From assembly GCA_030539285.1 (NCBI GenBank), contig JAUNSH010000017.1:1-50394 (forward strand): DNA of 50,394 nucleotides. Direction: 5' to 3'. The translations under genes were made by a program, and so were the position numbers. Shown here piece by piece: positions 1-26,964 of this stretch; positions within the stretch are counted from its first letter, which is position 1; each line of letters opens with the position of its first letter. Origin of the DNA: Eubacteriales bacterium. GTDB lineage: Bacteria > Bacillota > Clostridia > Oscillospirales > Oscillospiraceae. The notes under the pieces were generated by a model that had not been told where the DNA came from, did not search any database, and saw only the letters and a program-made list of their open reading frames with translations.

Positions 1-435
1 GCTGCCAACGACGCCATCTGTATCGCCCTGTGCTCTGCCGACGGCATTGCCAAGGATAACGAGGAGCGTATGAAGCACTGCCACAACATGCTCGAGCGCG
101 GCATGAGCCTGGGCATGGACGCCACCGACCTGTGGTTCGACCCCCTGTTCCTGGTTGTCAAGGGTATGCAGGACAAGCAGATGGAAGTTCTGGAAGCCAT
201 CAAGCTGTTCTCCAATGAGGGCCTGAAGTCCACCGGCGGTCTGTCCAACAACAGTAACGGCGCGCCCAAGACCGTCCGTCCCATCATGGACTCCGCTCTG
301 GTCGCCATGTGCATGATGCAGGGTCTGACCTCCGCCATCGTCAACCCCAACGACCTGCGCCTGATGGAGACCATCAAGTCCTGCGACATCTTCAAGAACC
401 ACGTTCTGTACTCCGACTCCTACCTCGACCTGTAA
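1..435 (+). CDS. acsE: 5'-truncated AcsE: methyl-THF:corrinoid/iron-sulfur protein methyltransferase
   Basis: The reading frame is open from base 1, so the gene starts upstream of the window. About 144 residues remain of a family that is usually about 260-270 aa, which makes this the C-terminal half of the TIM barrel. The visible sequence (LWFDPLFLVVKGMQ, GGLSNNSNGAP, ending in YSDSYLDL) matches the methyltetrahydrofolate-binding fold of AcsE. The family moves the methyl group from methyl-THF to the cobalt of the corrinoid iron-sulfur protein, linking the two branches of the Wood-Ljungdahl pathway. acsB follows downstream, as in other clostridial acs clusters. acsC and acsD are presumably upstream (inference). 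The TAA stop is the first triplet of a dispersed repeat. Confidence 0.93.
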   Translation, partial: AANDAICIALCSADGIAKDNEERMKHCHNMLERGMSLGMDATDLWFDPLFLVVKGMQDKQMEVLEAIKLFSNEGLKSTGGLSNNSNGAPKTVRPIMDSALVAMCMMQGLTSAIVNPNDLRLMETIKSCDIFKNHVLYSDSYLDL

Positions 436-511
436 GCAGCGAGTCGCCGCAGACAATGCGTGCCCGGCTGGTGTGTATAATCGTAACGCCATTGGGTACC
501 GCTCGGTATCG
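433..511 (+). repeat. Stop-codon-associated structured repeat, copy 1 (after acsE)
   Basis: A ~79-bp element starting at the TAA of acsE. It has an imperfect GCAGCGA/TCGCCGC hairpin, then CAATGCGT pairing with ACGCCATTG (one bulged C), then a small TACCG/CGGTA hairpin. It aligns nearly end to end with copies at 3359-3436 and (inverted) 26888-26964. All three begin on a stop codon. I do not know a name for this family. Confidence 0.8.
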
Positions 512-530
512 CTACTGCCTGTAAGGTAGG

Positions 531-609
531 GCGGGGGTGGTGCTCCGCGCAGCGAATCAAAATTATGATGATTGCCAGTGGCAATCATACCATAATTTAT
601 TGCCCCCGC
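531..609. repeat. Large imperfect hairpin between acsE and the next gene
   Basis: GCGGGGG at 531-537 pairs with CCCCCGC at 603-609. AAATTATG (560-567) pairs with CATAATTT (591-598), and 568-588 is a perfect palindrome (arms ATGATTGCCA/TGGCAATCAT around one G). Together they form a long stem with internal loops. It could be a remnant of a small mobile element or an mRNA-processing hairpin. No protein is encoded. Confidence 0.6.
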
Positions 610-659
610 TGTCCGCGATGCGGAATGTACAGAGCGCTATTGAAAACGTCCCAAGCTAT

Positions 660-686
660 GGCTGGGAGGGAACTCCCCTCCCAGCC
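660..686 (+). terminator. Strong GC hairpin upstream of the PH-like gene
   Basis: GGCTGGGAGG pairs with CCTCCCAGCC around a 7-nt loop. The following T-run is poor (AGTTTGCATTTTAT), so this may be a weak terminator or an attenuating hairpin in an acs transcript rather than a full stop. Confidence 0.45.
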
Positions 687-717
687 AGTTTGCATTTTAT
701 CCGAAAGGAACATCCCT

Positions 718-1146
718 ATGACCCCCAGCCAACTGGGCATTCTCGCCGGAGCGGCACTGGTGCTGCTGCTGGCAATTCGTTCGTCCCTGCAAAAGCGCCA
801 AGAGCGCAAAGAGCGGGACTTCACCCGCACGCTGGAAACCGCCCTGCTGCCAAAGGAGACCGTCAAAGTCATCTGCCCCCAGAAAAAAGGCCGGTACATC
901 CTGACCAATAAACGGCTGATTTTGGAGGAAAAAGGCAGTTTTCACGCCATCCCCTTTGACAAAATCAAATCCATCCAAGGTAAAAACGCCGCCGGAAACC
1001 GCACCACGTCTCCGGCCAACATGGTGAGCCTGACCATCAAGGCAGACAAGGACATCACCATTCAAAACAGTAACGACCAGTTCCCGGAACTGACAAAGCT
1101 TCTTCAATCAGAGCTAAAAAAGAGAAAGGAAAAAGCGGAGAAATAA
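718..1146 (+). CDS. Small single-pass membrane protein with a PH-like domain
   Basis: 142 aa. The ATG at 718 follows a GAAAGGA ribosome site; upstream in-frame starts would add residues from hairpin sequence and are rejected. Residues ~5-20 (LGILAGAALVLLLAI) form one membrane segment, followed by a basic stretch (KRQERKERD). From ~55 on, the pattern YILTNKRLILEEKG...IPFDKIKSIQ is the strand layout of bacterial PH-like (bPH) domains. The tail is lysine-rich. It sits between acsE and acsB, where acetogens usually have no such gene. The function is unknown, and a direct role in acetyl-CoA synthesis is not supported by any motif. Confidence 0.72.
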   Translation: MTPSQLGILAGAALVLLLAIRSSLQKRQERKERDFTRTLETALLPKETVKVICPQKKGRYILTNKRLILEEKGSFHAIPFDKIKSIQGKNAAGNRTTSPANMVSLTIKADKDITIQNSNDQFPELTKLLQSELKKRKEKAEK

Positions 1147-1201
1147 CTCCACACTATCTAAAGCGGTATATTCAGCCCCTTTCGGCTCTATATAGATAAA
1201 T

Positions 1202-1223
1202 CCAATTTTGAAATCAAATTTGG
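1202..1223 (+). promoter_or_regulatory. Hairpin abutting the acsB ribosome-binding site
   Basis: CCAATTTTGA (1202-1211) pairs with TCAAATTTGG (1214-1223) with one mismatch. The 3' arm runs into the GGGAGG ribosome site (1222-1227), so folding could limit translation or protect the mRNA 5' side. Just upstream, TATCTA and TAGATA arms flank a further weak stem. Confidence 0.4.
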
Positions 1224-1234
1224 GAGGAATTTCA

Positions 1235-3361
1235 ATGAGTGTATTAACCGATCTGATTTACGGCGGCTCCAACGCCGTGGCCGGCCTGACCGAGAGCGCC
1301 GTCAAGGACGCCATCGCCAAGTACGGCGCGGACAAGGCCATCGCCTTCCCCGACACCGCCTACTTCTTCCCCACCATCTACGCCGCCACCGGCGTGAAGG
1401 TCAAGACCCTGGGCGACCTGCCCGCCTGCGTGGACGTGCTCAAGAGCCTGATCACCAATCAGGAGGACCTGGGGCAGGCTCTGAATGCCGGTCTTGCCAC
1501 CGCTGTGGGCGCCGAGATCATTGAAGGCCTGAAATATGTGGACGGCACCAACCCCTACGAGAACGACACCGGCATCGGCTTCGTGCCCGATCCCATCATC
1601 CGTTCTCTGGGTGTGCCTCTGGTCACCGGCGATATCCCCGGCGTGGCGGTCGTTCTGGGCAAGGCTGAGAATCCCGCCGACGTGGTGAAGGTTGTCAAGG
1701 ATTACCAGTCCAAGGGCCTGCTGACCTTCCTGGTGGGCGACGTCATCGAGCAGTGCAACCAGGGCGGCGTGAAGATGGGTCTGGAGCTGCGCGTCATTCC
1801 CCTGGGCCATGACGTGACCTCCGTCATCCACGTTGTCACCGTTGCCATCCGTGCCGCTTTGATTTTCGGCAATGTCCAGCCCGGCAATCTGGCCGGCCTG
1901 CTGGACTACACCAAGAACCGTGTGCCCGCTTTCGTCAATACCTTCGGCGCCATCGACGCCGTTGTGGTCTCCGCCGGTGCCGGTGCCATCGCCCTGGGCT
2001 TCCCCGTGGTGGTGGACATCGATCTGGGTGAGAATCAGGTGCCCGGCGCTCTGGAATCCGTCTGCGACCACGCCGAGACCGTGAAGAAGTCTCTGGAGCT
2101 GCGGAACATCAAGATCAAGGTCAAGGAGCTGCCCATCCCCGTGGCCTTTGCCGCCGCCTTCGAGGGCGAGATCATCCGCAAGTCCGACATGCACAACGAG
2201 TGCTGGTCTGCCAAGAACCCCACCGCCGAGCTGGTGGTCATGCGGGACTTAAACGAAGTCGAGGATCACAAGATCACCATCATCGGACCCGATCTGGCTG
2301 ACCAGAAGGAACTGGCTCTGGCTACTTACGTGGAGGTCGCCGGCAAGAAGATGCAGGCTGACTTTGAGTCCGTCATCGAGCGGAAGTTCCACGCATGGTT
2401 CAACTACATGGAGGGTGTCATGCACACCGGCCAGCGCAATCAGGTCCGTGTCCGTGTGTCCAACGCCGCTTTCGAGGCAGGCCTCAAGCTGAAGGACTTC
2501 GCCGAGGTGCTGTACGTCATGATCATGGACGAGTTCGACGCCGTTGTTGACAAGTGCCAGGTCACCCTGATCACCGACGCCGCCGAGGCCGCCAAGTTCC
2601 GTGACGAGGTCGCCATGCCCCGTTACAATGCCCGTGACGACCGTCTGGCTTCCATGACCGACGAGGCCGTGGACCGCTATTACACCTGCATTCTGTGCCA
2701 GTCTTTCGCCCCCGCCCACTGCTGCGTAGTCACCCCCGAGCGTCTGGGCCTGTGCGGCGCCGTCAGCTGGCTGGACGCCAAGGCCACCCACGAGCTGAAC
2801 ACCAACGGCCCCTGCCAGCCCATCTTCAAGGAGGGCTGCCTGGACGAGCGCACCGGCCGCTTCGAGTCTGTCAACAAGGCCATCACCGATGCCACCCACG
2901 GCGCTGTGGAGAATGTCACCCTGTACTCCATTCTGGAGGACCCCATGACCTCCTGCGGCTGCTTCGAATGCATTTGCGGCATCGAGCCTATGTCCAACGG
3001 CTTCATCGTGGTGAACCGGGAATACAAGGGCATGACCCCCGCCGGTATGACCTTCGGCGAGCTGGCCTCCTGCACCGGCGGCGGCGTCCAGACTCCCGGC
3101 TACATGGGCCATGGCCGTCACTTCATCTCCTCCAAGAAGTTCATCGCTGCCGAGGGCGGCATTGAGCGCATCGTCTGGATGCCCAAGGAGCTGAAGGATG
3201 ACGTTGCCGAGCGTCTGAACAAGACCGCCAAGGAGCTGTACGGCATGGACAACTTCACCGACATGGTGGCCGACGAGACCATCACCACCGACTGCGAGGA
3301 GCTGCTGAACTGGCTGACCGAGAAGGGCCACCCTGTTCTGAACATGGAGCCTCTGATGTAA
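1235..3361 (+). CDS. acsB: Acetyl-CoA synthase catalytic subunit (CODH/ACS beta)
   Basis: 708 aa from the ATG at 1235, which has GGGAGG 7 nt upstream; the TTG at 1208 is rejected. The enzyme makes acetyl-CoA from CO, the methyl group on the corrinoid protein, and CoA. All A-cluster cysteines are present: C485, C488, C497 and C507 (spacing 2, 8 and 9 residues, as in the Moorella enzyme) and C574-G-C576, the pair that binds the proximal nickel. The length is close to the ~729 aa of the Moorella protein. It has the N-terminal CODH-contacting region (PDTAYFFPTIYAATG), so it is the long bacterial form rather than the short archaeal form. It lies between acsE and acsV. The TAA stop begins the second copy of the dispersed repeat. 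Confidence 0.98.
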   Translation: MSVLTDLIYGGSNAVAGLTESAVKDAIAKYGADKAIAFPDTAYFFPTIYAATGVKVKTLGDLPACVDVLKSLITNQEDLGQALNAGLATAVGAEIIEGLKYVDGTNPYENDTGIGFVPDPIIRSLGVPLVTGDIPGVAVVLGKAENPADVVKVVKDYQSKGLLTFLVGDVIEQCNQGGVKMGLELRVIPLGHDVTSVIHVVTVAIRAALIFGNVQPGNLAGLLDYTKNRVPAFVNTFGAIDAVVVSAGAGAIALGFPVVVDIDLGENQVPGALESVCDHAETVKKSLELRNIKIKVKELPIPVAFAAAFEGEIIRKSDMHNECWSAKNPTAELVVMRDLNEVEDHKITIIGPDLADQKELALATYVEVAGKKMQADFESVIERKFHAWFNYMEGVMHTGQRNQVRVRVSNAAFEAGLKLKDFAEVLYVMIMDEFDAVVDKCQVTLITDAAEAAKFRDEVAMPRYNARDDRLASMTDEAVDRYYTCILCQSFAPAHCCVVTPERLGLCGAVSWLDAKATHELNTNGPCQPIFKEGCLDERTGRFESVNKAITDATHGAVENVTLYSILEDPMTSCGCFECICGIEPMSNGFIVVNREYKGMTPAGMTFGELASCTGGGVQTPGYMGHGRHFISSKKFIAAEGGIERIVWMPKELKDDVAERLNKTAKELYGMDNFTDMVADETITTDCEELLNWLTEKGHPVLNMEPLM

Positions 3362-3436
3362 GCGGCGAGTCGCCACAGACAATGCGTGCACAAGGTGTGT
3401 ATAATCGTTACGCCATTGGGCACCGCTCCGTATCGA
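3359..3436 (+). repeat. Stop-codon-associated structured repeat, copy 2 (after acsB)
   Basis: Starts on the acsB TAA. It has the same three stems as copy 1: GCGGCGA/TCGCCAC, CAATGCGT with ACGCCATTG, and a weak ACCG/CGGT-like end. It ends 4 nt before the ATG of the RAYT gene, so the element forms the whole 5' side of that gene. Confidence 0.82.
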
Positions 3437-3440
3437 TACC

Positions 3441-3926
3441 ATGCAGAAAAACCGTAAACAAAATCGCCTGGCTGGCTTTGACTACAGCCAGCTAGGCGCA
3501 TATTTCATCACCATCTGTACCAAGGACAGGAAGTGCCTGCTCAGTACCATCGTAGGGGGCGATGCCCACATCGCCCCTTACGCCGCACTAACGTCCACGG
3601 GAGCAGTCGTCCAGAGGTACCTTCTGACAATTCCGGGAATTGACCGATATGTGATCATGCCAAATCATGTGCACATGATTCTCCGTATTTCCGCAACTGC
3701 GCCCGTGACCGGCCCAATGTGGCCAGATGCCCCGGCGGAAGCTTGCGTTCCCTCCTTGATCCGTTCATGGAAAACGTTGGTTTCTAAGGAACTGGGGTTC
3801 TCTATTTGGCAGAAGTCCTACTACGACCACATTATTCGGGACGAACTTGACTATATTACGAAAGCACAATACATAGACAACAATCCCGCGAAATGGCTTG
3901 AAGACAAGTATTACTCCATTTCTTAG
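3441..3926 (+). CDS. REP-associated tyrosine transposase (RAYT, IS200-like Y1)
   Basis: 161 aa, full length for the family. It shows the N-terminal motif FDYSQLGAYFITICTKDR, the HUH metal motif in IMPNHVHMIL and the catalytic Tyr region QKSYYDHIIRDELDY, so it appears intact. RAYTs are single-copy domesticated relatives of IS200 transposases that cut single-stranded REP hairpins. No ribosome site precedes the ATG, and the stop-codon repeat ends 4 nt upstream. A REP palindrome lies inside the frame (3551-3578, coding VGGDAHIAP) and an identical inverted copy follows the gene (3954-3981). It separates acsB from acsV, and the intervening DNA is otherwise gene-free. Confidence 0.88.
   Translation: MQKNRKQNRLAGFDYSQLGAYFITICTKDRKCLLSTIVGGDAHIAPYAALTSTGAVVQRYLLTIPGIDRYVIMPNHVHMILRISATAPVTGPMWPDAPAEACVPSLIRSWKTLVSKELGFSIWQKSYYDHIIRDELDYITKAQYIDNNPAKWLEDKYYSIS
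3551..3578 (+). repeat. REP palindrome inside the RAYT coding frame
   Basis: 28 bp with arms around GGGGCGATG / CATCGCCCC. It is identical base for base to 32081-32108, and its reverse complement is identical to 3954-3981. Read in frame it encodes VGGDAHIAP without breaking the RAYT. Confidence 0.85.
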
Positions 3927-3953
3927 GGTATGCCTTGGATCTTAGCCGTGCCA

Positions 3954-3981
3954 AGGGGCGATGTGGGCATCGCCCCCTACG
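3954..3981 (-). repeat. REP palindrome, inverted copy 3' of the RAYT
   Basis: Exact reverse complement of 3551-3578, 27 nt after the RAYT stop and 51 nt before acsV. The two copies face each other, which is the usual RAYT/REP arrangement except that one copy is intragenic. Confidence 0.85.
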
Positions 3982-4032
3982 TTTGCATTTATCCCACGCG
4001 AATGAAATGAGACAAGAAAGGAAGATTGTCCC

Positions 4033-5958
4033 ATGAAAGTAACCTTCCAAATCGAGGGCGCAAGCCCCGTTATCATCGAATGCAACGCCGGAGATAATCT
4101 GCTGGAACTGGCCCGCCGAGGCAATGTCGCTATCGACGCCCCCTGCTCCGGCAACGGCTCCTGCGGCAAGTGCCGCGTAAAGCTCATTGAGGGCGAACTG
4201 GAATCCCTTCCCAGCCGCCACATCTCCGACGAGGAATACAAGGAGGGCTGGCGGCTGTCCTGCTCTTCCAAGGTGCGCTCCGACTGCACCGTTTTTGTGC
4301 CGGATATTGCCAGCGCCTACCAGTCCCGGATGAAGACCGCTGACCTGAGCAGCCCCAAGGAAGTGGCGATTTTTGACGAGTGTCAGGAGAACCTGAAAAA
4401 CAGCGGCATCCACTTCACCAACCGCTACCGCGCCAAGGTCATTACCATGGCGGAACCGTCGCTAGAGGACACCATGCCCGACAACGAGCGGCTGACCTGG
4501 GCCATCGAGGAAGCCTTCGGCGTGGAAAATGTCCACATTCCCTTTCCCGTCATGGTGGGTCTTGCCCGCACCCTGCGGGAAAACCACTTCACCGTCTGCG
4601 TCAAGGGTGAGCTGACGGAAAACACCTTCCATTGCATGGAGGTCTGCGCCCCTGATGATACCGCCATTGTGGGCTGCGCCATCGACATCGGTACCACCAC
4701 CGTCACCATGGTTCTGACGGATTTGGAGACCGGCAAGCTGCTGGCGAAAGGCTCCTCCGGCAACGGTCAGATCCGCTATGGAGCGGATGTCATCAACCGC
4801 ATCATCGAGCAGGGCCGCCCCGGCGGACGGAAAAAGCTTCAGGATGCTATTCTGAAAGAAACCCTCATTCCCATTATTGCCAATCTCTGCAAAACCGCCA
4901 AGATCAGCGCCCGCAGCATTCTGCGGCTGTGCGTCGGCGCCAACACCACCATGAACCACCTGTTCGTGGGCGTTGACGCGGAATCCGTCCGCATGGAACC
5001 CTATGTGCCCAGTTTCTTCCACTGGGACGGCCTGCTGGCGGGAGATCTGAAGCTCCCCGCCAATCCTCTGGCCCCCGTGCTCATCGCTCCAAACATCGGC
5101 TCTTACGTGGGCGGTGACATTACCGCAGGTACTCTCGCCTCCGGCATCTGGGACAAGGACGAAATGAGCCTGTTCATCGACCTGGGCACCAACGGCGAAA
5201 TCGTCTTCGGCAACCGGGACTTCCTCATGTCCTGCGCCTGCTCTGCTGGCCCCGCCTTTGAGGGCGGCGACATTTCCAGCGGTATGCGGGCCACCGACGG
5301 CGCGGTGGAGGCCTGCGTCATTGACGTGGACACCATGGAACCCACCCTTTCCATCATCGGCGACGAGGGCCAGAAGTGCGTGGGTATCTGCGGCAGCGGC
5401 ATCATCGACCTGATCTCCGAGCTGTACCGCTGCGGCATCATCAACGCCAAGGGCCTGTTCGTCCGGGAGGGCGCGCGGGTGCGCCGGGATGCCCACGGCA
5501 TGGGCCGCTACGTAGTGGCTTTCCCCGAGGAATCCGAGACGGGCCGGGAGATTTCTCTGAACGAAGTGGACATCGACAACTTCATCCGGGCCAAGGGCGC
5601 CATTTTCTCCGCCATCGACACCCTGCTTTCCTCCGTGGACATGAGCGTGGAAATGATCGACCGGGTGTATGTCGCCGGCGGCATCGGCAGCGGCATCAAT
5701 ATGAAAAACGCCGTGAATATCGGCATGTTCCCGGATGTGGACATTGAAAAGTTCCATTATATCGGCAACTCCTCCCTGACCGGCTCCTACGCCATGGTCA
5801 TGAGCGACGAGGCAAATGCCAAGTGTGCCGAGGTGGCCTCCAACATGACCTATCTGGAACTGAGCACCCACCCCGGCTACATGGACGCCTTTGTGGCCGC
5901 CTGCTTCCTGCCCCACACCGACGCTCGGCTGTTCCCCCACAGCATTCAGGAGAGGTAA
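4033..5958 (+). CDS. acsV: Reductive activator of the corrinoid/iron-sulfur protein (RACo)
   Basis: 641 aa. The N-terminal [2Fe-2S] ferredoxin domain carries C38, C44, C47 and C77 (C-x5-C-x2-C then a distant Cys). The large C-terminal part is the ASKHA/actin-like ATPase of the DUF4445 family, with glycine-rich phosphate loops DIGTTTVTM (~220) and DLGTNGEI (~385) and VYVAGGIGSG near the end. RACo uses ATP to return inactive Co(II) of the corrinoid protein AcsCD to Co(I), so the methyl transfer cycle can restart. The ATG follows an AAAGGAAG site. It is downstream of acsB, separated by the RAYT/REP insertion, and 2 nt ahead of the DUF3786 gene, with which it must be co-transcribed. Confidence 0.95.
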   Translation: MKVTFQIEGASPVIIECNAGDNLLELARRGNVAIDAPCSGNGSCGKCRVKLIEGELESLPSRHISDEEYKEGWRLSCSSKVRSDCTVFVPDIASAYQSRMKTADLSSPKEVAIFDECQENLKNSGIHFTNRYRAKVITMAEPSLEDTMPDNERLTWAIEEAFGVENVHIPFPVMVGLARTLRENHFTVCVKGELTENTFHCMEVCAPDDTAIVGCAIDIGTTTVTMVLTDLETGKLLAKGSSGNGQIRYGADVINRIIEQGRPGGRKKLQDAILKETLIPIIANLCKTAKISARSILRLCVGANTTMNHLFVGVDAESVRMEPYVPSFFHWDGLLAGDLKLPANPLAPVLIAPNIGSYVGGDITAGTLASGIWDKDEMSLFIDLGTNGEIVFGNRDFLMSCACSAGPAFEGGDISSGMRATDGAVEACVIDVDTMEPTLSIIGDEGQKCVGICGSGIIDLISELYRCGIINAKGLFVREGARVRRDAHGMGRYVVAFPEESETGREISLNEVDIDNFIRAKGAIFSAIDTLLSSVDMSVEMIDRVYVAGGIGSGINMKNAVNIGMFPDVDIEKFHYIGNSSLTGSYAMVMSDEANAKCAEVASNMTYLELSTHPGYMDAFVAACFLPHTDARLFPHSIQER

Positions 5959-5960
5959 GT

Positions 5961-6572
5961 ATGGAAATCGAAAATCACAAGGAAGAAGTACCCTTTGCCT
6001 TTTACGAGGAAAAGTTCCGCACTCTGAACCCCGAGGATGTGACGGCGCGTCTCAATGATGTCCGTTGGGACGGAACGGAATTCACCGTCCGTCTGCTAGG
6101 CAGGGATTTTGCCATTGCCCACCCGGATTACGCTATCCGTGCCCTGGACGGCGGGGCCATCCCGCCCCTGCCCACCCAGACCTTCCTGCTGCGCTACCTG
6201 CTGGAAAGCAGGGACGTCCGCTGGGGCGGCGAGTGGAAGACCTTTCGGGAAATGCCCTGGGGGGAAATGTACATCAAGCCCTACACCGGCCGGGTGCTGA
6301 CCCGGGCCGCCTTCACCTTCGGCACACGAGTAGCCGCTTTCCGCTCTGCCGCCGAAAAAATGGGAGGTCTGCCCCTGCCCAACGGCGACGCGGGTTACCA
6401 ATTTGACCTGATCGGCGGCTACCGGATGCGGATTCTGGTGTGGGAGGGGGATGACGAGTTCCCGCCCAACGCCCAGGTGCTGTATTCCGACAACTTTGCC
6501 GAAGGCTTTGCCGCGGAAGACCGTGTTGTGGCAGGAGATATCCTAATTTCTACCATTAAAAGTTATATGTGA
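5961..6572 (+). CDS. DUF3786 protein of the acs cluster
   Basis: 203 aa, ATG 2 nt after the acsV stop with AGGAGAGG just upstream; longer in-frame versions would overlap acsV. The sequence has the features of DUF3786 (TFLLRYLLES, GEMYIKPYTGR, AGYQFDLIGGYRMRILVWEGDDEFPPNAQVLYSDNF). It has no signal peptide or membrane segment and no cysteine cluster. This family tends to occur near corrinoid and acetyl-CoA pathway genes in acetogens and methanogens, but its biochemical role is not known to me. The tight coupling to acsV suggests it works on or with the corrinoid protein (inference). A strong terminator overlaps its stop and ends the operon. Confidence 0.82.
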   Translation: MEIENHKEEVPFAFYEEKFRTLNPEDVTARLNDVRWDGTEFTVRLLGRDFAIAHPDYAIRALDGGAIPPLPTQTFLLRYLLESRDVRWGGEWKTFREMPWGEMYIKPYTGRVLTRAAFTFGTRVAAFRSAAEKMGGLPLPNGDAGYQFDLIGGYRMRILVWEGDDEFPPNAQVLYSDNFAEGFAAEDRVVAGDILISTIKSYM

Positions 6573-6602
6573 GAAAGGCTCCCCGAAAAGGGGAGCCTTT
6601 CT
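6572..6602 (+). terminator. Rho-independent terminator of the acs operon
   Basis: AAAGGCTCCCC / GGGGAGCCTTT hairpin with a GAAAA loop, followed by T-rich DNA. Confidence 0.85.
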
Positions 6603-6695
6603 GCACCTTCCCCCAGCAAAAGCGCACCTTGGCAGCACACGACTTGTGCAGTCCGTGCCGATGTGATAAGATGAAACCACGAAAGGGGGCCGGGT

Positions 6696-7136
6696 ATGAA
6701 AATTACGGTAGAACATACGGATTCAGAAGAAAACGAGGTCATCCTGCGCTGCCGGGCGCTGGATGACGAAATGCTCCGCCTGCTGGCGCTGGTACGCTCC
6801 GGGATGCAGAAGCTGCTGGTATGGAACGAACAGAAGGAGCTGCTGCCGCTGAGCGTTTCGGAAGTGGTATACTGCGAGACGGTGGAGGAAAAAACCTTTG
6901 TCTACACGCAAAGTAGTATGTACCAGACTGCCCTGACACTGGCGGAGCTGGAGGAACGCTGGGCCGCCACCGGGCTGCTGCGCTGCGGCAAATCCTGCTT
7001 GGTGAATCTCTACGCCATCCGGCGGCTGCGCAGCTGCGGGGCCGGGCGCATCGAGGCCGCCCTGTCCACCGGAGAAAAAATCATGATCTCCCGGCACTAT
7101 GCCCCCGCCCTGCGGGAGCGGCTGGGAATGGGATGA
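6696..7136 (+). CDS. LytTR-type DNA-binding regulator
   Basis: 146 aa. Residues ~45-146 form a LytTR domain: LLPLSVSEVVYCETVEEKTFVYT, then LRCGKSCLVNLYAIRRLR and IMISRHYAPALRERLG. The N-terminal ~40 residues resemble the short extension seen in LytTR proteins that lack a response-regulator receiver domain. The ATG follows AAAGGGGGCC. It is 13 nt ahead of a DUF3021 membrane protein. LytTR/DUF3021 pairs are a recurrent Firmicutes module in which the membrane partner is thought to control the regulator. The targets are unknown. Confidence 0.85.
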   Translation: MKITVEHTDSEENEVILRCRALDDEMLRLLALVRSGMQKLLVWNEQKELLPLSVSEVVYCETVEEKTFVYTQSSMYQTALTLAELEERWAATGLLRCGKSCLVNLYAIRRLRSCGAGRIEAALSTGEKIMISRHYAPALRERLGMG

Positions 7137-7149
7137 AAGGAGCAAAACT

Positions 7150-7587: not shown

Positions 7588-7590
7588 AAA

Positions 7591-7620
7591 ATGCCTTCCC
7601 CGGAGGGGAAGGCTTTTTTG
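7591..7620 (+). terminator. Terminator after the LytTR-DUF3021 pair
   Basis: GCCTTCCCC / GGGGAAGGC hairpin with a GGA loop, followed by TTTTTTG. Confidence 0.88.
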
Positions 7621-7693: not shown

Positions 7694-7709
7694 TTACGGA
7701 GGATTCCAA

Positions 7710-18813: not shown

Positions 18814-18839
18814 AAAACCAAACCTCTCTATCTTACGGT

Positions 18840-18881: not shown

Positions 18882-19035
18882 AAAAGCCCCGCGGAGTCTG
18901 ACGCTCCGCAGAAAATATTTCGATCCGTCTTCTTCTCAAATACGGAAAGTCACACCGTTTCCAATGCGGCTCGGAACCACGAGTGGTTCGGCAAAGCCGC
19001 CTTGGCGCAGGCTTTAGGCGGCAGTGCTTGAAGAC
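18882..19035 (-). ncRNA. Structured moeA leader; candidate molybdenum/tungsten cofactor (Moco/Tuco) riboswitch
   Basis: The leader runs from the promoter to the attenuator. Near its 5' end CCGCCT and AGGCGG pair around AAAGCCTGCGCCA, then GAACCA and TGGTTC pair around CTCG, and GGAAACGGTGTGAC follows. A second hairpin (TGCGGAG/CTCCGCG) lies just before the attenuator. Moco riboswitches (Rfam RF01055) control Moco synthesis and use genes, so the context fits. I could not score it against the model, so the class is inferred. Confidence 0.5.
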
Positions 19036-19041
19036 ATGATT

Positions 19042-19070
19042 ATACTAGCAAATCGGTTGGAAACTGTCAA
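19042..19070 (-). promoter_or_regulatory. moeA operon promoter
   Basis: TTGACA (19065-19070), 17-nt spacer, TAGTAT (19042-19047) preceded by TGC (extended -10). It lies in the 3' end of fdhD. Confidence 0.75.
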
Positions 19071-19794: not shown

Positions 19795-19823
19795 TACCAG
19801 CGCCCCCTTTGTATCTTACCGCT

Positions 19824-19852
19824 ATTTTACAACGGCGTACACTTTTTTTCAA
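19824..19852 (-). promoter_or_regulatory. fdhD promoter
   Basis: TTGAAA (19847-19852), 17-nt spacer, TAAAAT (19824-19829). It is back to back with a weaker mobA promoter: TTGATT (19860-19865), 17 nt, TAGCAT (19883-19888) on the plus strand. Confidence 0.7.
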
Positions 19853-19912
19853 CAGTCTCTTGATTCCTTCGGCGGCTTGCGGTAGCATAAAACAAAAAGG
19901 AGGGGATGTGCA

Positions 19913-20497
19913 ATGACGGGAGAAAACTTCTCGATGATCGTGCTGGCTGGGGGTAAAAGCAGCCGCATGGGCACGGACAAGGCGGATTTGACCATTGGAG
20001 ACAAAACCTTTCTGCAAATCCAGATCGAAAAGGGGAGAAAGCTGGGCATCCGGGACATTCAGGTCTCCGGCTACCGGGGGACAAACTGCGATATCCCGGT
20101 CACACCAGACCGTTTTCCGAATAAAGGGCCGCTGGGAGGATTGGAAAGCTGCCTGCGCGGGGCGAGACACGAAAAATGCCTGGTCCTCAGCGTGGATGTT
20201 CCGCTGGTCCCCGTGGAGGAGCTGGAAAATCTCCTCCACGCCGGTGATCCAGGCGGCGCTTCCGCAATGATCCTGAAAAACAACGGGAAAGAGCAGCCCC
20301 TGATTGCCGTTTATCACAAGGATCTGGCGGATGCCATGCTGGCGGAGATCACGGATGGCAATGGCTCTGTTTTTGCCTTTTTGAACAAAACGGGCTACGC
20401 GGTATACGAAAGCGCCGTTCCGGCGGAATGCTTTCTCAACGTCAACGCCCCGGAAGCATACGCGGACGTAAAGAAAAAAATCTGCCGTTTTATGTAA
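19913..20497 (+). CDS. mobA: MobA: molybdenum cofactor guanylyltransferase
   Basis: 194 aa. Nucleotidyltransferase motif VLAGGKSSRMGTDKA at the N terminus, GPLGGLESCLRGA, and the metal-binding region VLSVDVPLVPVEEL. It transfers GMP from GTP to molybdopterin to make the bis-MGD form used by formate dehydrogenase. The ATG follows AGGAGGGG. The intergenic gap to the formate dehydrogenase operon (101 nt) contains a separate promoter. Confidence 0.93.
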   Translation: MTGENFSMIVLAGGKSSRMGTDKADLTIGDKTFLQIQIEKGRKLGIRDIQVSGYRGTNCDIPVTPDRFPNKGPLGGLESCLRGARHEKCLVLSVDVPLVPVEELENLLHAGDPGGASAMILKNNGKEQPLIAVYHKDLADAMLAEITDGNGSVFAFLNKTGYAVYESAVPAECFLNVNAPEAYADVKKKICRFM

Positions 20498-20504
20498 AAT
20501 TGTA

Positions 20505-20563
20505 TTGCAGAATGTTTGTGAGTATTGTATAATCGACATGTAACATTGCATATTTGATATGTC
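20505..20563 (+). promoter_or_regulatory. Formate dehydrogenase operon promoter and possible operator
   Basis: TTGCAG (20505-20510), 17-nt spacer, TATAAT (20528-20533). Just downstream, 20535-20563 is an imperfect inverted repeat with GACAT and ATGTC ends, placed over the expected start site. Confidence 0.65.
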
Positions 20564-20598
20564 TATTTTTTATAACACCATAAGGAGGCATTATTCTT

Positions 20599-21081
20599 AT
20601 GCTTGAGCAGTCGTATTATGCAAAGGCAGATGAGATCATCGGGGTGTATGGTCCCACGCCTGCCTCGCTGATCCCCATTATGCAGGATATCCAGGCGGAA
20701 TACCGCTATCTGCCCGCGGAGCTTCTGACCTATGTGGCGGATAAGATCAGCGTGACCAAAGCCAAGGCCTATTCTGTGGCAACTTTCTATGAAAATTTTT
20801 CCTTTGAGGCCAAGGGGAAGTACGTCATCAAGGTCTGTGACGGCACTGCCTGCCACGTCAAAAAGTCCATGCCGGTTCTGGCGGCCCTGTACAAGAAGCT
20901 GGGGCTCAGCGCCCAGAAGCACACCACCGACGACATGATGTTCACGGTGGAGACCGTCTCCTGTCTGGGTGCCTGCGGTCTGGCCCCCACCATGATGGTC
21001 AACGAGGAAGTCCATCCCCGTATGACTCCGGAATCCGCTGTCGCGCTGATTGATTCCTTAAGAGGAGGTGCCGCAGAATGA
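20599..21081 (+). CDS. NuoE/HydC-like [2Fe-2S] subunit of the formate dehydrogenase
   Basis: 160 aa. Thioredoxin-like ferredoxin fold with the four ligands in CDGTAC and CLGAC. It is very close in sequence to HydC of the hydrogenase at the end of this window (for example the shared AKAYSVATFYENFSFEAKGK stretch). It carries electrons to or from the flavin subunit encoded by the next gene, which it overlaps by 4 nt. The complex with NuoF-like and FdhA proteins is a soluble pyridine-nucleotide-linked formate dehydrogenase. Confidence 0.93.
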   Translation: MLEQSYYAKADEIIGVYGPTPASLIPIMQDIQAEYRYLPAELLTYVADKISVTKAKAYSVATFYENFSFEAKGKYVIKVCDGTACHVKKSMPVLAALYKKLGLSAQKHTTDDMMFTVETVSCLGACGLAPTMMVNEEVHPRMTPESAVALIDSLRGGAAE

Positions 21082-22958
21082 TCGATACCATCGACGCTCT
21101 GAACAAGGTCCGTGAAGCTGCCGCGGCGCAGCTGGCAGGTTACGACTGCCGCATTCTCGTGTGTTCCGGCACCGGCTGTATTGCCACCGGCTCTGAGAAA
21201 ATTTACGAAAAATTCCGGGAGATCACCGCGAATACCCCCGGTGTCGTGCTGGATTTCGCCCCCTGCGGCGGTCACGACAAGAACCTCGGCATCAAGAAGA
21301 CCGGCTGTCAGGGCATCTGCGAGCTGGGACCTTTGGTGCGCATCCAGAAGGGAAGCGACGTGATCCAGTACACCAAGGTTTCCCTTGCTGACTGTGAGGA
21401 TATCTTCAACACCAGCGTGCTGGGCGACGGCGTGGTTGAACGCCTGCTGTACAAGCAGAACGGCAATACTTATGTGAAGCCGGAAGAAATTCCCTTCATT
21501 GCCAAGCAGACAAGAATCGTTCTGGAAAACTGCGGCAAATTTGACGCAGGCTCTCTGGATGAATACCTGGCCGGCGGCGGCTTCAAGGCCCTGGAAAAGG
21601 CCATGACGGCCATGACCCCCGACCAGATCATTGACGAGGTCGAGAAGTCCGGCCTTCGTGGCCGTGGCGGCGGCGGCTTCCCCACCGGCAAGAAGTGGCG
21701 TCAGGTGGCAAACCAGAAGGAGACCACCCGTTACGTGGTCTGCAACGGCGACGAGGGCGACCCCGGCGCGTTTATGGACGGCTCCGTCATGGAGGGCGAC
21801 CCCTTCAAGCTCATTGAGGGCATGATGATCGCCGCCTACGCGGTGAAGGCACAGCATGGCTACATCTACGTCCGGGCCGAATATCCCAACTCCGTCAAGC
21901 GCCTGCGCAGCGCCATTACCGAGCTGGAAAGCCGGGGGCTGCTGGGCGAGAATATCCTCGGCACGGGCTTTAACTTCCATATGCACATCAACCGCGGCGC
22001 GGGCGCATTCGTCTGCGGCGAAGGCTCCGCTCTGACCGCCTCCATCGAAGGCAGCCGGGGTATGCCCCGTGTCAAGCCCCCCAGAACCGTGGAGCAGGGC
22101 CTGTGGGCAAAGCCTACGGTGCTGAATAACGTTGAAACTTACGCCAACGTACCCAAGATCATTTTGGAGGGTTCCGAATGGTACCGCTCCATCGGCACGG
22201 AGGGCAGCCCCGGCTGCAAGACCTTCTCCCTCACCGGCTCCATCCAAAATACGGGCCTCATCGAGGTGCCCATGGGCACCACCCTGCGGGAGATCATCTT
22301 TGACATCGGCGGTGGTCTGAAAAACGGCGCAAAATTCAAGGCTGTTCAGATCGGCGGCCCCTCCGGCGGCTGTCTAACGGAGGAGCATCTGGATGTGCCG
22401 CTGGACTTTGATTCCGTCAAGAAGTACGGCGCCATCGTCGGCTCCGGCGGCCTTGTGGTCATGGACGAGAACACCTGCATGGTGGAGGTGGCCCGGTTCT
22501 TCATGGGCTTCACCCAGCGGGAGTCCTGCGGCAAGTGCGGCCCCTGCCGCATCGGCACCAAGCGGATGCTGGAGATTTTGGAAAAGATCGTAGCGGGCAA
22601 GGGCACCATGAAGGACCTGGAAAAGCTGGAAGAAACTGCCCGGTTCGTCAAGGAGCGCTCCCTGTGCGGCCTTGGCAAGAGCGCCCCCCTGCCGGTGCTC
22701 AGCACCATCAAGAACTTCCGGGAGGAGTATGTGGAGCACATCGTGCAGCACAAGTGTCGTGCCCACGTCTGCACCGCTCTGCTGAACTATACCATCGACG
22801 CCGACAAGTGCAAGGGCTGCGGCAAATGCGCCCGGAACTGTCCTGTCAGCGCCATCACCGGCGAAAAGAAAGCGCCCCATACCATCAACACGGCCAAGTG
22901 CATCAAGTGCGGCACCTGTCTGGGCGGCTGTCCCTTTGACGCCATCGAAGTCCGGTAA
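21078..22958 (+). CDS. NuoF/HydB-like FMN and NAD(P)-binding subunit of the formate dehydrogenase
   Basis: 626 aa. Domains in order: N-terminal thioredoxin-like [2Fe-2S] domain (CSGTGCIATG, CGGHDKNLG, CQGICELG), the FMN/NAD site GLRGRGGGGFPTGKKW and CNGDEGDPGAFMDG, the SLBB domain, the [4Fe-4S] site ESCGKCGPCRIGTKRM, and a two-cluster ferredoxin tail (CKGCGKCARNCPVSAI and CIKCGTCLGGCPFDAI). This layout is that of HydB of electron-bifurcating hydrogenases, and the protein closely matches the HydB at 47887-49776. In this operon it probably couples formate dehydrogenase to NAD(P)H and possibly ferredoxin. Confidence 0.94.
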   Translation: MIDTIDALNKVREAAAAQLAGYDCRILVCSGTGCIATGSEKIYEKFREITANTPGVVLDFAPCGGHDKNLGIKKTGCQGICELGPLVRIQKGSDVIQYTKVSLADCEDIFNTSVLGDGVVERLLYKQNGNTYVKPEEIPFIAKQTRIVLENCGKFDAGSLDEYLAGGGFKALEKAMTAMTPDQIIDEVEKSGLRGRGGGGFPTGKKWRQVANQKETTRYVVCNGDEGDPGAFMDGSVMEGDPFKLIEGMMIAAYAVKAQHGYIYVRAEYPNSVKRLRSAITELESRGLLGENILGTGFNFHMHINRGAGAFVCGEGSALTASIEGSRGMPRVKPPRTVEQGLWAKPTVLNNVETYANVPKIILEGSEWYRSIGTEGSPGCKTFSLTGSIQNTGLIEVPMGTTLREIIFDIGGGLKNGAKFKAVQIGGPSGGCLTEEHLDVPLDFDSVKKYGAIVGSGGLVVMDENTCMVEVARFFMGFTQRESCGKCGPCRIGTKRMLEILEKIVAGKGTMKDLEKLEETARFVKERSLCGLGKSAPLPVLSTIKNFREEYVEHIVQHKCRAHVCTALLNYTIDADKCKGCGKCARNCPVSAITGEKKAPHTINTAKCIKCGTCLGGCPFDAIEVR

Positions 22959-22973
22959 GGGAGGATAGGAAAC

Positions 22974-25682
22974 ATGATTCATCTGAAAATTAACGGAATT
23001 CCCGTGGAAGTGGAAAAAGGCACCACGGTGCTTGCCGCCGCGAAGAAGATCGGCGTGAAGATCCCCACCCTGTGCTATCTGGAAGACCTGCTGCCCGACG
23101 GCTCCTGCCGCATCTGCGTGGTGGAAATGACCGCAAACGGCAGAACCTGGGTGGACACCGCCTGTACCGCCCAGTGTTCCGAGGGCATGGAAGTGGACAC
23201 CATGTCAGCCAAGGTCATCGATTCCAGAAGAAAGACCCTTGACCTGCTGCTCAGTGAGCACCTCATCAACTGCTTCAGCTGCGAAGCTAACGGCGATTGC
23301 AAGCTCCAGAGCCTGTGCGTGGAATACGGTCTGGAAAAGACCAGCTATTCCGCTCCCCGGAAGCTGAAGCCCATCGACGATTCCAACAAGTTCTTCACCT
23401 ACGACCCCAACAAGTGCATCCTGTGCCACCGCTGCGTCAACACCTGCAACGAGATCGTGGGCCGGGGCGCCATCGACACCATGAACCGGGGCTTCACCTC
23501 CGTCATCGGCGCGCCTTTTGACGACAACTGGCTGACCTCCACCTGTGAGTCCTGCGGCAACTGCGTGCAGGCCTGCCCCACCGGCGCTCTTAGCATGAAG
23601 CGGCGGAAGAAGTACCGCACCTTCCAGATCGAGAAGAAAGTCCTGACCACCTGTCCCCACTGCGCCACCGGCTGCCAGTTCTATGCGCTGGTGAAGGACG
23701 GCAAGGTGATGGACACCGAGGCCTACAACGGCCCCTCCAACCGTGGCCTTCTGTGCGTCAAGGGCCGCAGCGGCAGCTTTGACTTTGCCCAGTCTCCCGA
23801 CCGGCTCAAGTATCCCCTTATTAAGAATAAGCAGACCGGCGAATTTGAGCGGGCCACCTGGGACGAGGCCCTGGATCTGGTCGCCTCCAAGTTCATGGAG
23901 CTGAAAAAGAAGTACGGCCCCGACGCACTGGCGGGCTTTGCCTGCTCCCGTTCTCCCAACGAGGACGTATACATGGTGCAGAAGATGGTGCGTACCTGCT
24001 TCGGCACCAACAACACCGATAACTGCGCCCGTGTCTGCCACTCCGCCTCCGTTTCCGGCCTTGCCATGACCCTTGGCTCCGGAGCCATGACCAACCCCAT
24101 CGAGGATATCACTCAGAAGCCCGACGTCATCATGCTGGTGGGCTCCAATCCCGAGGAAGCCCATCCCGTTGTGGGTATGCAGATCCGTCAGGCCGTCAAG
24201 CGTGGCTGCAAGCTCATCGTGGTCGATCCCCGTGACATTGGCCTTGCCAAGAAGGCTGACATCCACCTGAAGCTGAAGCCCGGCACCAACGTGGCCTTCG
24301 CCAACGGCATGATGCACGTCATCATCGAGGAGGGCCTGCAGGACGACAAATTCATCGCCGAGCGCACCGAAGGCTACGAGGAGATTAAGGAAATTGTCAA
24401 GAAGTACACCCCCGAGGTAGTCGCGGAGATCTGCCACATCAACGCCGACGATTTGCGGGCCGCCGCCCGGATGTACGCCAAGGCCGACAAAGCCCCCATC
24501 ATCTACTGTCTGGGCGTTACCGAGCACTCCACCGGCACCGAGGGCGTTATGTCCATGTCCAACATGGCTCTGCTGGTGGGCAAGCTGGGCCGGGAAGGCT
24601 GCGGCGTGAACCCCCTCCGGGGTCAGAACAACGTGCAGGGCGCCTGTGACATGGGTGCGTCCCCCACGGATTTCCCCGGCTACCAGAAGATCGCCAAGCC
24701 CGGCGTGGTGGAAAAGTTCGAGGAGGCCTGGGGCGTTCCCCTGAACCGCAATGTGGGCACCCACGCCACCGATGTATTCCCCAATGCCATCACAGGCGAA
24801 ATTAGGGGCCTGTACATCTACGGCGAAGACCCGGTGGTCACCGACCCCGACACCACCCACATCATTAAGGCCCTGAAGAGCCTGGACTTCTTCGTGATCC
24901 AGGAGCTGTTCATGACCGAGACCGCCAAGTACGCGGACGTGATCCTGCCCGGATGCAGCTATCTGGAGAAGGAAGGCACCTTCACCAACACCGAGCGCCG
25001 TGTCCAGCGTGTCCGCAAGGCCATCGATCCCCCCGGCGAGGCCCGGCTGGATACCGACATCATCATTGACCTGATGAACCGCATGGGCTATCCTCAGAAG
25101 CACATGACCTCCGCCCAGATCATGGACGAGATCGCCACCGTCACCCCCAGCTTCGGCGGCATCAGCCACGCCCGACTGGACAGCGACGAGGTCGGCGGCC
25201 GGGGCCTGCAGTGGCCCTGCCCCACCAAGGATCATCCCGGCACCTACATCATGCACGTGGGCAAGTTCGCCCGGGGCCTGGGCTGGTTCTACCCGGCAGA
25301 GTATGTGCCCTCTGCGGAGCTGCCCGACGAGGACTACCCCATCATCCTGATGACGGGCCGTATCCTGTACCACTACACAACCCGTGCCATGACCGGCCGG
25401 ACCCCGGAGCTGATGGAGATTGAGGGCAAGTCCTTCATCGAAATGAACATCGTGGATGCCGACAAGCTGGGCATTGCCGACGGCGACCGGGTGCGGGTCT
25501 CCTCCCGCCGCGGCTCCATCGAATCCACCGCCCGGGTGGGCACCAAGACCTCTCCCGGCGAGAGCTGGATGCCCTTCCACTTCCCGGACGGCAACGCCAA
25601 CTGGCTGACCAACGCGGCGCTGGATAAGTACGCCCGGATCCCGGAGTATAAGGTCTGTGCCGTCAAGATTGAGAAAGCTTAA
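22974..25682 (+). CDS. fdhA: Formate dehydrogenase catalytic subunit, cysteine type
   Basis: 902 aa. The N-terminal NuoG-like part has a [2Fe-2S] domain (PDGSCRICVVEM), a His-Cys cluster (HLINCFSCEANGDCKLQSLC) and two [4Fe-4S] sites (CILCHRCVNTCNE, CESCGNCVQACP). The Mo-bis-MGD domain starts at CPHCATGCQF and GLLCVKGRSG. The metal ligand is C355 in ARVCHSASV, followed by the conserved H356. There is no in-frame TGA, so this is a Cys rather than a selenocysteine enzyme. It catalyses CO2/formate interconversion, the first step of the methyl branch. It is the third gene of the operon, 15 nt after the NuoF-like gene. Confidence 0.96.
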   Translation: MIHLKINGIPVEVEKGTTVLAAAKKIGVKIPTLCYLEDLLPDGSCRICVVEMTANGRTWVDTACTAQCSEGMEVDTMSAKVIDSRRKTLDLLLSEHLINCFSCEANGDCKLQSLCVEYGLEKTSYSAPRKLKPIDDSNKFFTYDPNKCILCHRCVNTCNEIVGRGAIDTMNRGFTSVIGAPFDDNWLTSTCESCGNCVQACPTGALSMKRRKKYRTFQIEKKVLTTCPHCATGCQFYALVKDGKVMDTEAYNGPSNRGLLCVKGRSGSFDFAQSPDRLKYPLIKNKQTGEFERATWDEALDLVASKFMELKKKYGPDALAGFACSRSPNEDVYMVQKMVRTCFGTNNTDNCARVCHSASVSGLAMTLGSGAMTNPIEDITQKPDVIMLVGSNPEEAHPVVGMQIRQAVKRGCKLIVVDPRDIGLAKKADIHLKLKPGTNVAFANGMMHVIIEEGLQDDKFIAERTEGYEEIKEIVKKYTPEVVAEICHINADDLRAAARMYAKADKAPIIYCLGVTEHSTGTEGVMSMSNMALLVGKLGREGCGVNPLRGQNNVQGACDMGASPTDFPGYQKIAKPGVVEKFEEAWGVPLNRNVGTHATDVFPNAITGEIRGLYIYGEDPVVTDPDTTHIIKALKSLDFFVIQELFMTETAKYADVILPGCSYLEKEGTFTNTERRVQRVRKAIDPPGEARLDTDIIIDLMNRMGYPQKHMTSAQIMDEIATVTPSFGGISHARLDSDEVGGRGLQWPCPTKDHPGTYIMHVGKFARGLGWFYPAEYVPSAELPDEDYPIILMTGRILYHYTTRAMTGRTPELMEIEGKSFIEMNIVDADKLGIADGDRVRVSSRRGSIESTARVGTKTSPGESWMPFHFPDGNANWLTNAALDKYARIPEYKVCAVKIEKA

Positions 25683-25690
25683 TACTAATC

Positions 25691-25840
25691 CTGATAAAAC
25701 CATTTGATTTTATCAGGTAGACACCGCCTTTGGCGTTGTCGTATTCATGATTTTCGAAATAGAAAATCATGAATACCCGTCTCATTATGATCTTCATATA
25801 GAAAATTTCAATTTGTTCCAAATTAAAGTTTTCTATTGAA
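25691..25840. repeat. Run of four hairpins after fdhA
   Basis: Intergenic. CTGATAAAA/TTTTATCAG (25691-25715), a short GACACCGCC/GGCGTTGTC stem (~25720-25740), a perfect 15-bp stem GTATTCATGATTTTC with its complement (25741-25776), and an AT-rich imperfect stem (~25793-25840). No coding sequence or U-tract is obvious. It may be a decayed mobile element or an mRNA-stability region. Confidence 0.55.
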
Positions 25841-25864
25841 TATCAGTATAAGTTCCACCCATAC

Positions 25865-25900
25865 AACAACCAGACCGCCTTGCGGGCGGTCTGGTTGTTT
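25865..25900 (+). terminator. Terminator of the formate dehydrogenase operon
   Basis: ACAACCAGACCGCC pairs with GGCGGTCTGGTTGT, then TTTCTG. A 14-bp stem. Confidence 0.88.
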
Positions 25901-25901
25901 C

Positions 25902-25937
25902 TGCAAAATAAGGGAGCAGCCTGCGCGGCTGCTCCCT
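25902..25937 (-). terminator. Terminator after folD
   Basis: Minus strand: AGGGAGCAGC / GCTGCTCCCT hairpin followed by TATTTTG. It ends the fchA-folD unit facing the fdh terminator. Confidence 0.8.
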
Positions 25938-25951
25938 GTGCTGTTATGCAG

Positions 25952-26830
25952 TTAGGCCCGCTCAGCGGCCTCCACAACGTGCTTCATCAGCACGGAGGTG
26001 GTGACGGATCCGACACCGCCGGGAACGGGGGTGATGGCGTCCACGATGGCGGCCACTTCATCGAACTTGGCGTCGCCGGCGATGGCGCCCTTGCCGCCCT
26101 TGGCGTTGGGCTTGTTCTCGTCCCAGTTGATGGACACGTCGATGACCACCTGGCCGGGCCGGACATAGTCGGCGGTCAGAGAGTTCAGCACACCGGCAGC
26201 GGAGACGATGATGTCCGCGTTCTTGCAGATTTCGGCAGTGTTCACAGTCTTGGTGTGGCAGACAGTGACGGTGGCGTTCTTGCCCATGAGCATCATGGCA
26301 GCAGGCTTGCCGACCACCAGGGACCGTCCGATGACCACGGCGTTCTTACCCTTGCAGTCGATGCCGTAGAAGTCCAGGATCTCCATGCAGGCGGAGGGGG
26401 TGCAGGGGGCGAAGCCCAGATCGTTCAGGCCCTCGAAGACACCGGCGTTGGAAAGGTGGGTCATGCAGTCCACATCCTTCTGGGGCGCCAGACGGTTGCA
26501 GATCTCGTTCTGGTCGGCCTTCAGGTGCTTGGGCAGGGGCCGGAACATCAGGACACCGTGGATGGAGTCGTCGGCGTTGACCTGATCGATGACGGCCAGC
26601 ACGTCTTCCTTGGTGGCGTCGGCGGGCAGCTCGAACTTCTTGACCTCCACGCCCACCAGCTCGGCACGCTTGGTAGCGCCCTTCTCGTAGGACAGGTCGG
26701 AGGGGTCAGCGCCCACGCGGATGATGCCCAGAGTGGGGACGACGCCCTTCTCCCGCAGCGCGGCGGTACGGGTCTGCAGATTGGCGTTCAGGGCATCGGT
26801 GACTTCCTTGCCCAGCAGCAGTTTTGCCAT
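25952..26830 (-). CDS. folD: FolD: methylene-THF dehydrogenase/methenyl-THF cyclohydrolase
   Basis: 292 aa, family length. It shows the FolD signatures GVLMFRPLPKHL (catalytic loop), PCTPSACMEIL, VVIGRSLVVGKPAAMMLMGKNATVTVCHT (NAD(P) fold) and the terminal PVPGGVGSVTTSVLMKHVV. In the Wood-Ljungdahl pathway it reduces methenyl- to methylene-THF. It lies 131 nt after fchA on the same strand, with a copy of the stop-codon repeat in that gap. Start chosen at the ATG with AAGGAGAAATG upstream. Confidence 0.97.
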   Translation of the reverse strand: MAKLLLGKEVTDALNANLQTRTAALREKGVVPTLGIIRVGADPSDLSYEKGATKRAELVGVEVKKFELPADATKEDVLAVIDQVNADDSIHGVLMFRPLPKHLKADQNEICNRLAPQKDVDCMTHLSNAGVFEGLNDLGFAPCTPSACMEILDFYGIDCKGKNAVVIGRSLVVGKPAAMMLMGKNATVTVCHTKTVNTAEICKNADIIVSAAGVLNSLTADYVRPGQVVIDVSINWDENKPNAKGGKGAIAGDAKFDEVAAIVDAITPVPGGVGSVTTSVLMKHVVEAAERA

Positions 26831-26887
26831 GTTACATTTCTCCTTACTATATTCAAAATATCAATAGTAAACTATTTCAGGCGGCTT

Positions 26888-26964
26888 GGTTACCGAGCAG
26901 TGCCCAATGGCGTTACGACTATAGACACGTTGGTAACGCATTGCCTGCGGCGGCTCGCCGCTTA
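26888..26964 (-). repeat. Stop-codon-associated structured repeat, copy 3 (after fchA)
   Basis: Starts on the TAA of fchA. Stems: GCGGC/GCCGC, then CAATGCGTTAC with GTAACGCCATTG (11 pairs, one bulged C), then an ACTGCTCGGT end. It is the copy with the best second stem. It lies between fchA and folD in what appears to be one transcript. Confidence 0.82.

Follow-up and report, generated by a model that had tools for sequence, protein, structure and literature searches.

Three genes of the Wood-Ljungdahl pathway in a 50,394 bp stretch of DNA from an Eubacteriales bacterium (Oscillospiraceae) end directly against copies of one short palindromic repeat, and the locus raises the question of whether this repeat belongs to the genes, as a signal at the 3′ ends of their mRNAs, or to a dispersed element that becomes joined to stop codons. 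The stretch, referred to here as the window, comprises positions 1–50,394 of the forward strand of contig JAUNSH010000017.1 in the draft genome GCA_030539285.1. The in-frame TAA codons of acsE, acsB and fchA (gene families assigned by Pfam and NCBIfam) directly precede copies 1, 2 and 3 of the repeat, respectively, as an initial annotation of this DNA had reported (Table 1). The three copies are members of a genus-restricted dispersed repeat family with a stop-codon register far beyond chance. The family is probably a mobile palindromic non-coding repeat, similar to repetitive extragenic palindromic (REP) sequences, bacterial interspersed mosaic elements (BIMEs) and miniature inverted-repeat transposable elements (MITEs), with its 5′ hairpin end joined to stop codons.

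Copy 1 gives 31 BLAST matches in its own draft genome, and 27 own-genome copies taken from such matches were aligned to build a model, R1. This model has 38 matches in the genome (E≤0.01), and the three window copies are the only ones on their contig. Run across relatives, as the initial annotation had proposed, R1 matches 27 of the 61 genomes of the genus (the source genome included), with at least ~509 matches in total (a column sum) and at least 76 in a single genome (G030). In an order-wide sample of 147 genomes searched at E≤1e-4 with strict filters, only the source genome is matched and the other 146 have no matches. A DNA pattern scan of named genomes returns 59 stretches, all from metagenome-assembled genomes titled Clostridia, Clostridiales, Oscillospiraceae or (one) Faecousia; two of these titles name rectum or cecum samples.

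The position of the element relative to genes was determined from the flanks of 186 copies in 27 genomes, mostly the best-scoring copies. The upstream gene was called by a coding-score open reading frame (ORF) caller on the same strand, ending between 60 nt inside and 600 nt upstream of the element; such a gene is called for 114 copies and not for the remaining 72. The stop codon ends at the edge of the 5′ hairpin in 44 of the 114 (offsets of −1, 0 and +1 in 9, 31 and 4 copies), and this register is found in 14 of the 24 genomes with a callable gene. Beyond the peak are seven copies at +2 to +20 (1, 1, 1, 3 and 1 at +2, +6, +7, +10 and +17, respectively), and eight further copies reach the stop codon when leading modules or tip sequence are counted (L121, L122, L132, L143, L144, L151, L210 and L211), two of them with only a partial module. 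At the register the units are single and in sense orientation, with the hairpin edge at TAA, TA+G or, less often, TGA.

The register is one-sided. The right end of the element lies within −1 to +1 of a gene end in 0 of 50 cases, with one at +5. GTAG palindromes of the same genome are in register at 0 of 37 sides (29 loci, used in place of a stricter-pattern control that yielded only seven usable sides), and E. coli K-12 REPs at 0 of 64 (42 REPs defined by motif in 300 kb, with a codon table trained on E. coli); the nearest E. coli REP is 6 nt away and seven sides are at 6–15 nt from a gene end. The nearest called gene was used for the GTAG and E. coli controls, and the best-scoring gene for the element edges. 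Fisher tests of the register against the right end, the GTAG palindromes and the E. coli REPs give p = 5e-9, 4e-7 and 8e-11, respectively, with the qualification that copies related by descent are not independent. These counts bear out the argument of the initial annotation that random insertion would not give a base-exact register, and its alternative of an element targeting a stop-codon sequence fits as a description of this exact, one-sided adjacency at unrelated genes.

TAG is over-represented at the register (10/44, compared with 16/344 in a background that includes them; p=2e-4), as if the first G of the element often completes TA+G, and TGA does not differ significantly (5/44 vs 76/344; p=0.12). 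Of the 38 copies of the source genome, 12 abut a called stop codon; a gene is called elsewhere for 11, and for 15 no gene is called. Two of the 26 copies outside the register look stop-adjacent by eye (L093, TAG; L108, TAA). Eight genes read into the element and end on an internal stop codon (offsets −18, −21, −28 and −44; L103, L079, L182, L080, L069, L222, L091 and L137), some with similar C-terminal tails (AASGR, PADNA/PPDNA). By eye, the element also follows an ORF of ~10 codons (MIKKLPGKRW-like) with an upstream sequence resembling a ribosome-binding site in three species (L113, L135 and L189), and at L189 the TGA of this tiny ORF is exactly at the element.

The 12 register genes of the source genome are acsE, acsB, a second acsB, fchA, pta, and genes for a rubrerythrin, a PTS EIIC component, an ABC permease, IMPDH, the DNA polymerase III alpha subunit (DnaE), the carbamoyl-phosphate synthase large chain (CarB) and a TPM protein. 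Four of these (acsE, both acsB genes and fchA) belong to the Wood-Ljungdahl pathway, pta is a related fifth, and eight lie outside the pathway, such that pathway genes are over-represented and not required. The statement in the initial annotation that only carbon-fixation genes carry the repeat therefore holds within the window and fails genome-wide. Ten register genes tested in relatives include those for DnaA, a class II tRNA synthetase, DHDPS, two DegV proteins, a BlaI-type repressor and an Opp ATPase. At the 30 best-matching loci of the genus for each gene (own locus included), acsB ends with the element at its stop codon in 4 of 21 readable cases and without it in 17 (nine loci at which the end motif matched in the wrong place were dropped), and fchA ends with it in six, one of them partial, and without it in 24. 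Beyond these best-matching loci, acsB of G060 and fchA of G011 also carry the element.

Seventeen sites of the source genome were sought in four close relatives and the gene ends scored with R1. Orthologous ends, covering 8 of the 12 register sites, are occupied in 18 of 30 cases and unoccupied in 12; among the unoccupied rows, one meets a contig end a few bases on (L347) and another is an additional locus from a genome already counted (L385). The PTS gene end, for example, carries the element in two relatives, and in two others ends in TGA without it. Stop codons thus exist without the element, which in those cases did not bring the stop codon with it. Fragments of the element are present at some unoccupied ends (e.g. 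L369 and L390), and TGA is the stop codon at 1 of the 18 occupied ends and at 5 of the 12 unoccupied ones (p=0.03, by our own reading of the rows).

The unit is ~80 nt long, with a GC-rich 5′ hairpin that varies in sequence but remains paired, followed by a conserved core that ends in GCTCGGTATCG. Of the three stems described as conserved in the initial annotation, only stem 1 is clearly supported as a pairing: across the 27 aligned copies, 95% of its cells are paired and each of its six pairs includes double changes that preserve the pairing. Stem 2 is conserved at the level of sequence, with 94% of cells paired and no pair in which both sides have changed; its bulged C, also reported as constant, is invariant. 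Stem 3 is 87% paired, with one pair broken in 14 of the 27 copies. RNAalifold predicts stem 1 together with a different downstream helix; stems 2 and 3 do not appear in the form described. Stem 1 occurs in exchangeable forms, and at some sites two or more stem-1 modules stand in a row before one core, such that part of its apparent covariation may come from the exchange of entire modules and not from changes at single bases.

All six pairs of stem 1 are intact in 39 of 44 register copies and in 114 of 142 others. Its plus-strand mismatches include 13 G.T and 21 A.C, without the G.T excess that selection at the RNA level would give; the corresponding counts for stem 2 (G.T 53, A.C 113) were not used, as one common inherited variant, ACACCATTG, seems dominant by eye. 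Predicted RNA folds of single copies are not clearly more stable than those of shuffled sequences (z of −0.30 to −1.28). Rfam has no gathering-level match at the copies, and a permissive scan around one copy returns only miRNA models, all below gathering scores.

Of the 142 copies away from stop codons, 25 have a TTTT in the 10 nt before them, compared with a 5% background, and some directly follow terminator-like T-runs in the same orientation. A simple TA dinucleotide was considered as a target; it fits the stop sites and not the remaining copies. Tandem copies are ~100–130 nt apart, and one locus (L214 401–829, contig C57 of G000) is a four-copy array with a 116-base period; two duplicate matches (L086 and L091) were dropped from one set of copies. 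A ~200-bp form with terminal inverted repeats starting TAAATTG contains the unit (G080, G027 and others) and includes an inverted unit pair by eye. In G080 the tip sequence of this form is matched 84 times in each orientation (≤2 mismatches), and a reversed-pattern control not at all. Many of the listed G080 places are near contig ends, as near-identical repeats are expected to break assemblies. The short units of the source genome, including the window copies, have no visible inverted repeats, and inspection of the flanks by eye reveals no clear target duplication.

No description of the family was found in the openly licensed literature, as judged by titles and abstract openings, and it shares features with several known systems. 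Like the REPs and BIMEs of E. coli and Pseudomonas, it consists of short GC-rich imperfect palindromes with tens of copies, intergenic, in tandem or inverted groups and often near 3′ ends. It resembles the GTAG/CGTC superfamilies of REPs as an extragenic palindrome dispersed in many copies per genome (38 here, at least 76 in relatives) and BIMEs in having units in tandem or, in the long form, as an inverted pair. Unlike REPs, it rarely starts with GTAG (2 of 186 copies have it at the 5′ foot), has no convincing RAYT (REP-associated tyrosine transposase) partner and has its edge exactly on stop codons. Group IIC introns and other elements insert after terminators, similarly to the copies that follow T-runs; however, a ~80-nt unit is too short for a reverse transcriptase, and its main register is at stop codons. 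Integron attC sites have the core boxes GTTRRRY and RYYYAAC and act with an integrase, but by eye the GTTACGC of the repeat departs from the first of these boxes. With its terminal inverted repeats and internal hairpins, the non-coding ~200-bp form resembles MITEs and other terminal inverted repeat families, including those described near RAYT genes (PMC3733652). The short units of the source genome differ from MITEs in lacking inverted repeats, and neither a transposase nor a clear target duplication was identified.

One candidate for mobilization is the RAYT-like ORF that starts immediately after copy 2 and scores below the cut-off of NF047646, the family it resembles; the repeat and this ORF would then form a normal REP/RAYT pair. 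A locus in G009 (L049) similarly has an R1 match ~60 nt downstream on the other strand. This pairing is improbable, and the ORF is probably not the partner of the element. R1 matches are near only 2 of 25 RAYT loci (that of the window and L049), on one side each (flanks of up to ~1.5 kb per side), two further RAYT loci of G009 (L452 and L453) have none, and several RAYT genes are flanked instead by a GTAGGGG...CCCCTAC palindrome. RAYT presence does not track the element either: R1 has no match in G008, G017, G019, G022, G029 and G033, all of which have RAYT matches, while G030, with at least 76 R1 matches, has no RAYT match; the near absence of GTAG from the 5′ foot points the same way. The reading frame of the RAYT-like ORF also contains one copy of another palindrome dispersed through the genome (GTAGGGGGCGATGCCCACATCGCCCCTTAC, 3552–3581), which has 64 other matches in the genome. 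At the acsB end of G080 (L234), a RAYT-like frame follows directly after the TAA with no element between, by eye, such that the same stop codon in another species is held by a different mobile gene.

We infer that the short unit is mobile, that a joining rule exists and that selection acts on the outcome. A putative moving machinery would join the 5′ hairpin end of the unit to T/A-rich triplets at gene 3′ ends, and insertions within genes would be lost through selection. A side effect on translation is possible: as with E. coli REPs ≤15 nt from a stop codon, ribosomes terminating in front of the hairpin may be slowed; a study from 2015, reportedly by Liang, Rudd and Deutscher, lies behind the statement, taken up below, that such closeness matters. 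We favour targeting on account of a peak that is sharp, confined to one side and not seen in two other palindrome families. Several observations weigh against this mobile-repeat reading. Pathway sites in the four close relatives are occupied in 13 of 14 cases (acsE 3/4, second acsB 4/4, fchA 4/4, acsB 2/2 readable) and other register sites in 11 of 22 (p=0.01; 7/8 vs 11/22, p=0.10, for the R1 count of orthologous ends alone), a difference suggesting that the element is retained at some genes. Copies at orthologous ends, e.g. at pta, share the 5′ hairpin and the 3′ end and differ in the middle, a pattern that also fits constraint or gene conversion. Non-stop copies have no fixed target motif before them, and the insertion rule is accordingly not defined; a transposase search limited to RAYT found no transposase flanked by the element. 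The ~200-bp forms are out of register, with only 3 of the 19 tips that have a called gene (among 59) showing the tip's own TAA ending the gene, and the mobility that they suggest may not carry over to the short unit.

A functional mRNA element, in which a stop-codon hairpin tunes termination, ribosome rescue or 3′-end stability and selection holds its position, is an unlikely alternative. It would account for the sense orientation and exact register, for stem 1 being kept slightly better at the register, and for sites shared by several species, most consistently those of the pathway. It is less easily reconciled with the lack of a G.T excess in stem 1, the many copies after terminator-like T-runs, the 12 of 30 orthologous ends without the element and the unremarkable stability of the RNA folds; moreover, a terminating ribosome should cover a hairpin adjacent to the stop codon. 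Selection for an effect on termination keeps some plausibility, since a 2025 tool paper (PMC12306157) states that in E. coli the closeness of a REP to the stop codon matters. A 3′-end signal shared by the Wood-Ljungdahl regulon, as proposed in the initial annotation, is very improbable. The four pathway genes in register, the related pta and the high occupancy of pathway sites leave a milder bias, but the remaining register genes are unrelated, the genome has 38 copies and most acsB and fchA ends of the genus (17/21 and 24/30) lack the element; many copies elsewhere, with no restriction to pathway genes, are what the initial annotation had itself named as speaking against such a signal. Equally hard to credit is an origin without targeting, by random intergenic insertion in a compact genome and loss of harmful copies: gene 3′ ends, at which the register sites lie, tolerate insertion, yet the peak spans one to three bases on a single side, and two other palindrome families in similar space have none. 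As a specific form of the mobile-repeat reading, the insertion machinery might recognise stop codons at gene 3′ ends, either directly or through termination-coupled exposure of DNA or RNA, and join to them base-exactly as a safe-harbour strategy. This proposal is rather doubtful, and titles and abstract openings of the openly licensed literature yielded no precedent for it.

The features of the window are collected in Table 1. Rfam also matches an FTHFS RNA (29442–29555, minus strand) and a molybdenum/tungsten cofactor riboswitch (18913–19045, minus strand) in the window.

Table 1. Repeat copies and associated genes in the window (coordinates are window positions).
Feature	Coordinates	Strand	Basis and remarks
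TAA stop codon of acsE	433..435	+	Immediately 5′ of copy 1, no spare base
Repeat copy 1	436..516	+	R1 match 435–516, 84 bits
Copy 1 stem 1, GCAGCG-AGT-CGCCGC, 5′ hairpin	436..450	+	Alignment and pair counts
Copy 1 stem 2, CAATGCGT (454–461) with ACG-C-CATTG (486–494), bulged C at 489	454..494	+	
Copy 1 stem 3, GGTACC (495–500) with GGTATC (505–510)	495..510	+	Weak as a stem; 3′ arm kept as sequence
TAA stop codon of acsB	3359..3361	+	Immediately 5′ of copy 2
Repeat copy 2	3362..3440	+	R1 match 3361–3440, 85 bits
TAA stop codon of fchA	26962..26964	-	Immediately 5′ of copy 3
Repeat copy 3, between fchA and folD	26883..26961	-	R1 match 26883–26962, 75 bits
acsE, 3′ part (gene cut by window edge)	70..435	+	PF00809; NCBIfam NF040758; upstream of copy 1
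acsB, CO dehydrogenase/acetyl-CoA synthase	1208..3361	+	PF03598/PF19436; upstream of copy 2
fchA	26962..27582	-	PF04961; upstream of copy 3
RAYT-like ORF	3441..3926	+	NF047646, E=2.2e-15, 56.8 bits vs cut-off of 80; starts at the base after the copy 2 R1 match

Bacterial palindromic repeats are common and mostly unexplained. What is new here looks like a dispersed palindromic repeat of a known kind, the REP/BIME/MITE sort, with an unusually exact stop-codon address. The base-exact register, the clean controls and the filled and empty orthologous sites make targeting and translational selection directly testable against each other. Under targeting, the family would show a mobile repeat following a safe-harbour rule; under selection, it would be a widespread 3′ tuning element in a genus carrying Wood-Ljungdahl genes.

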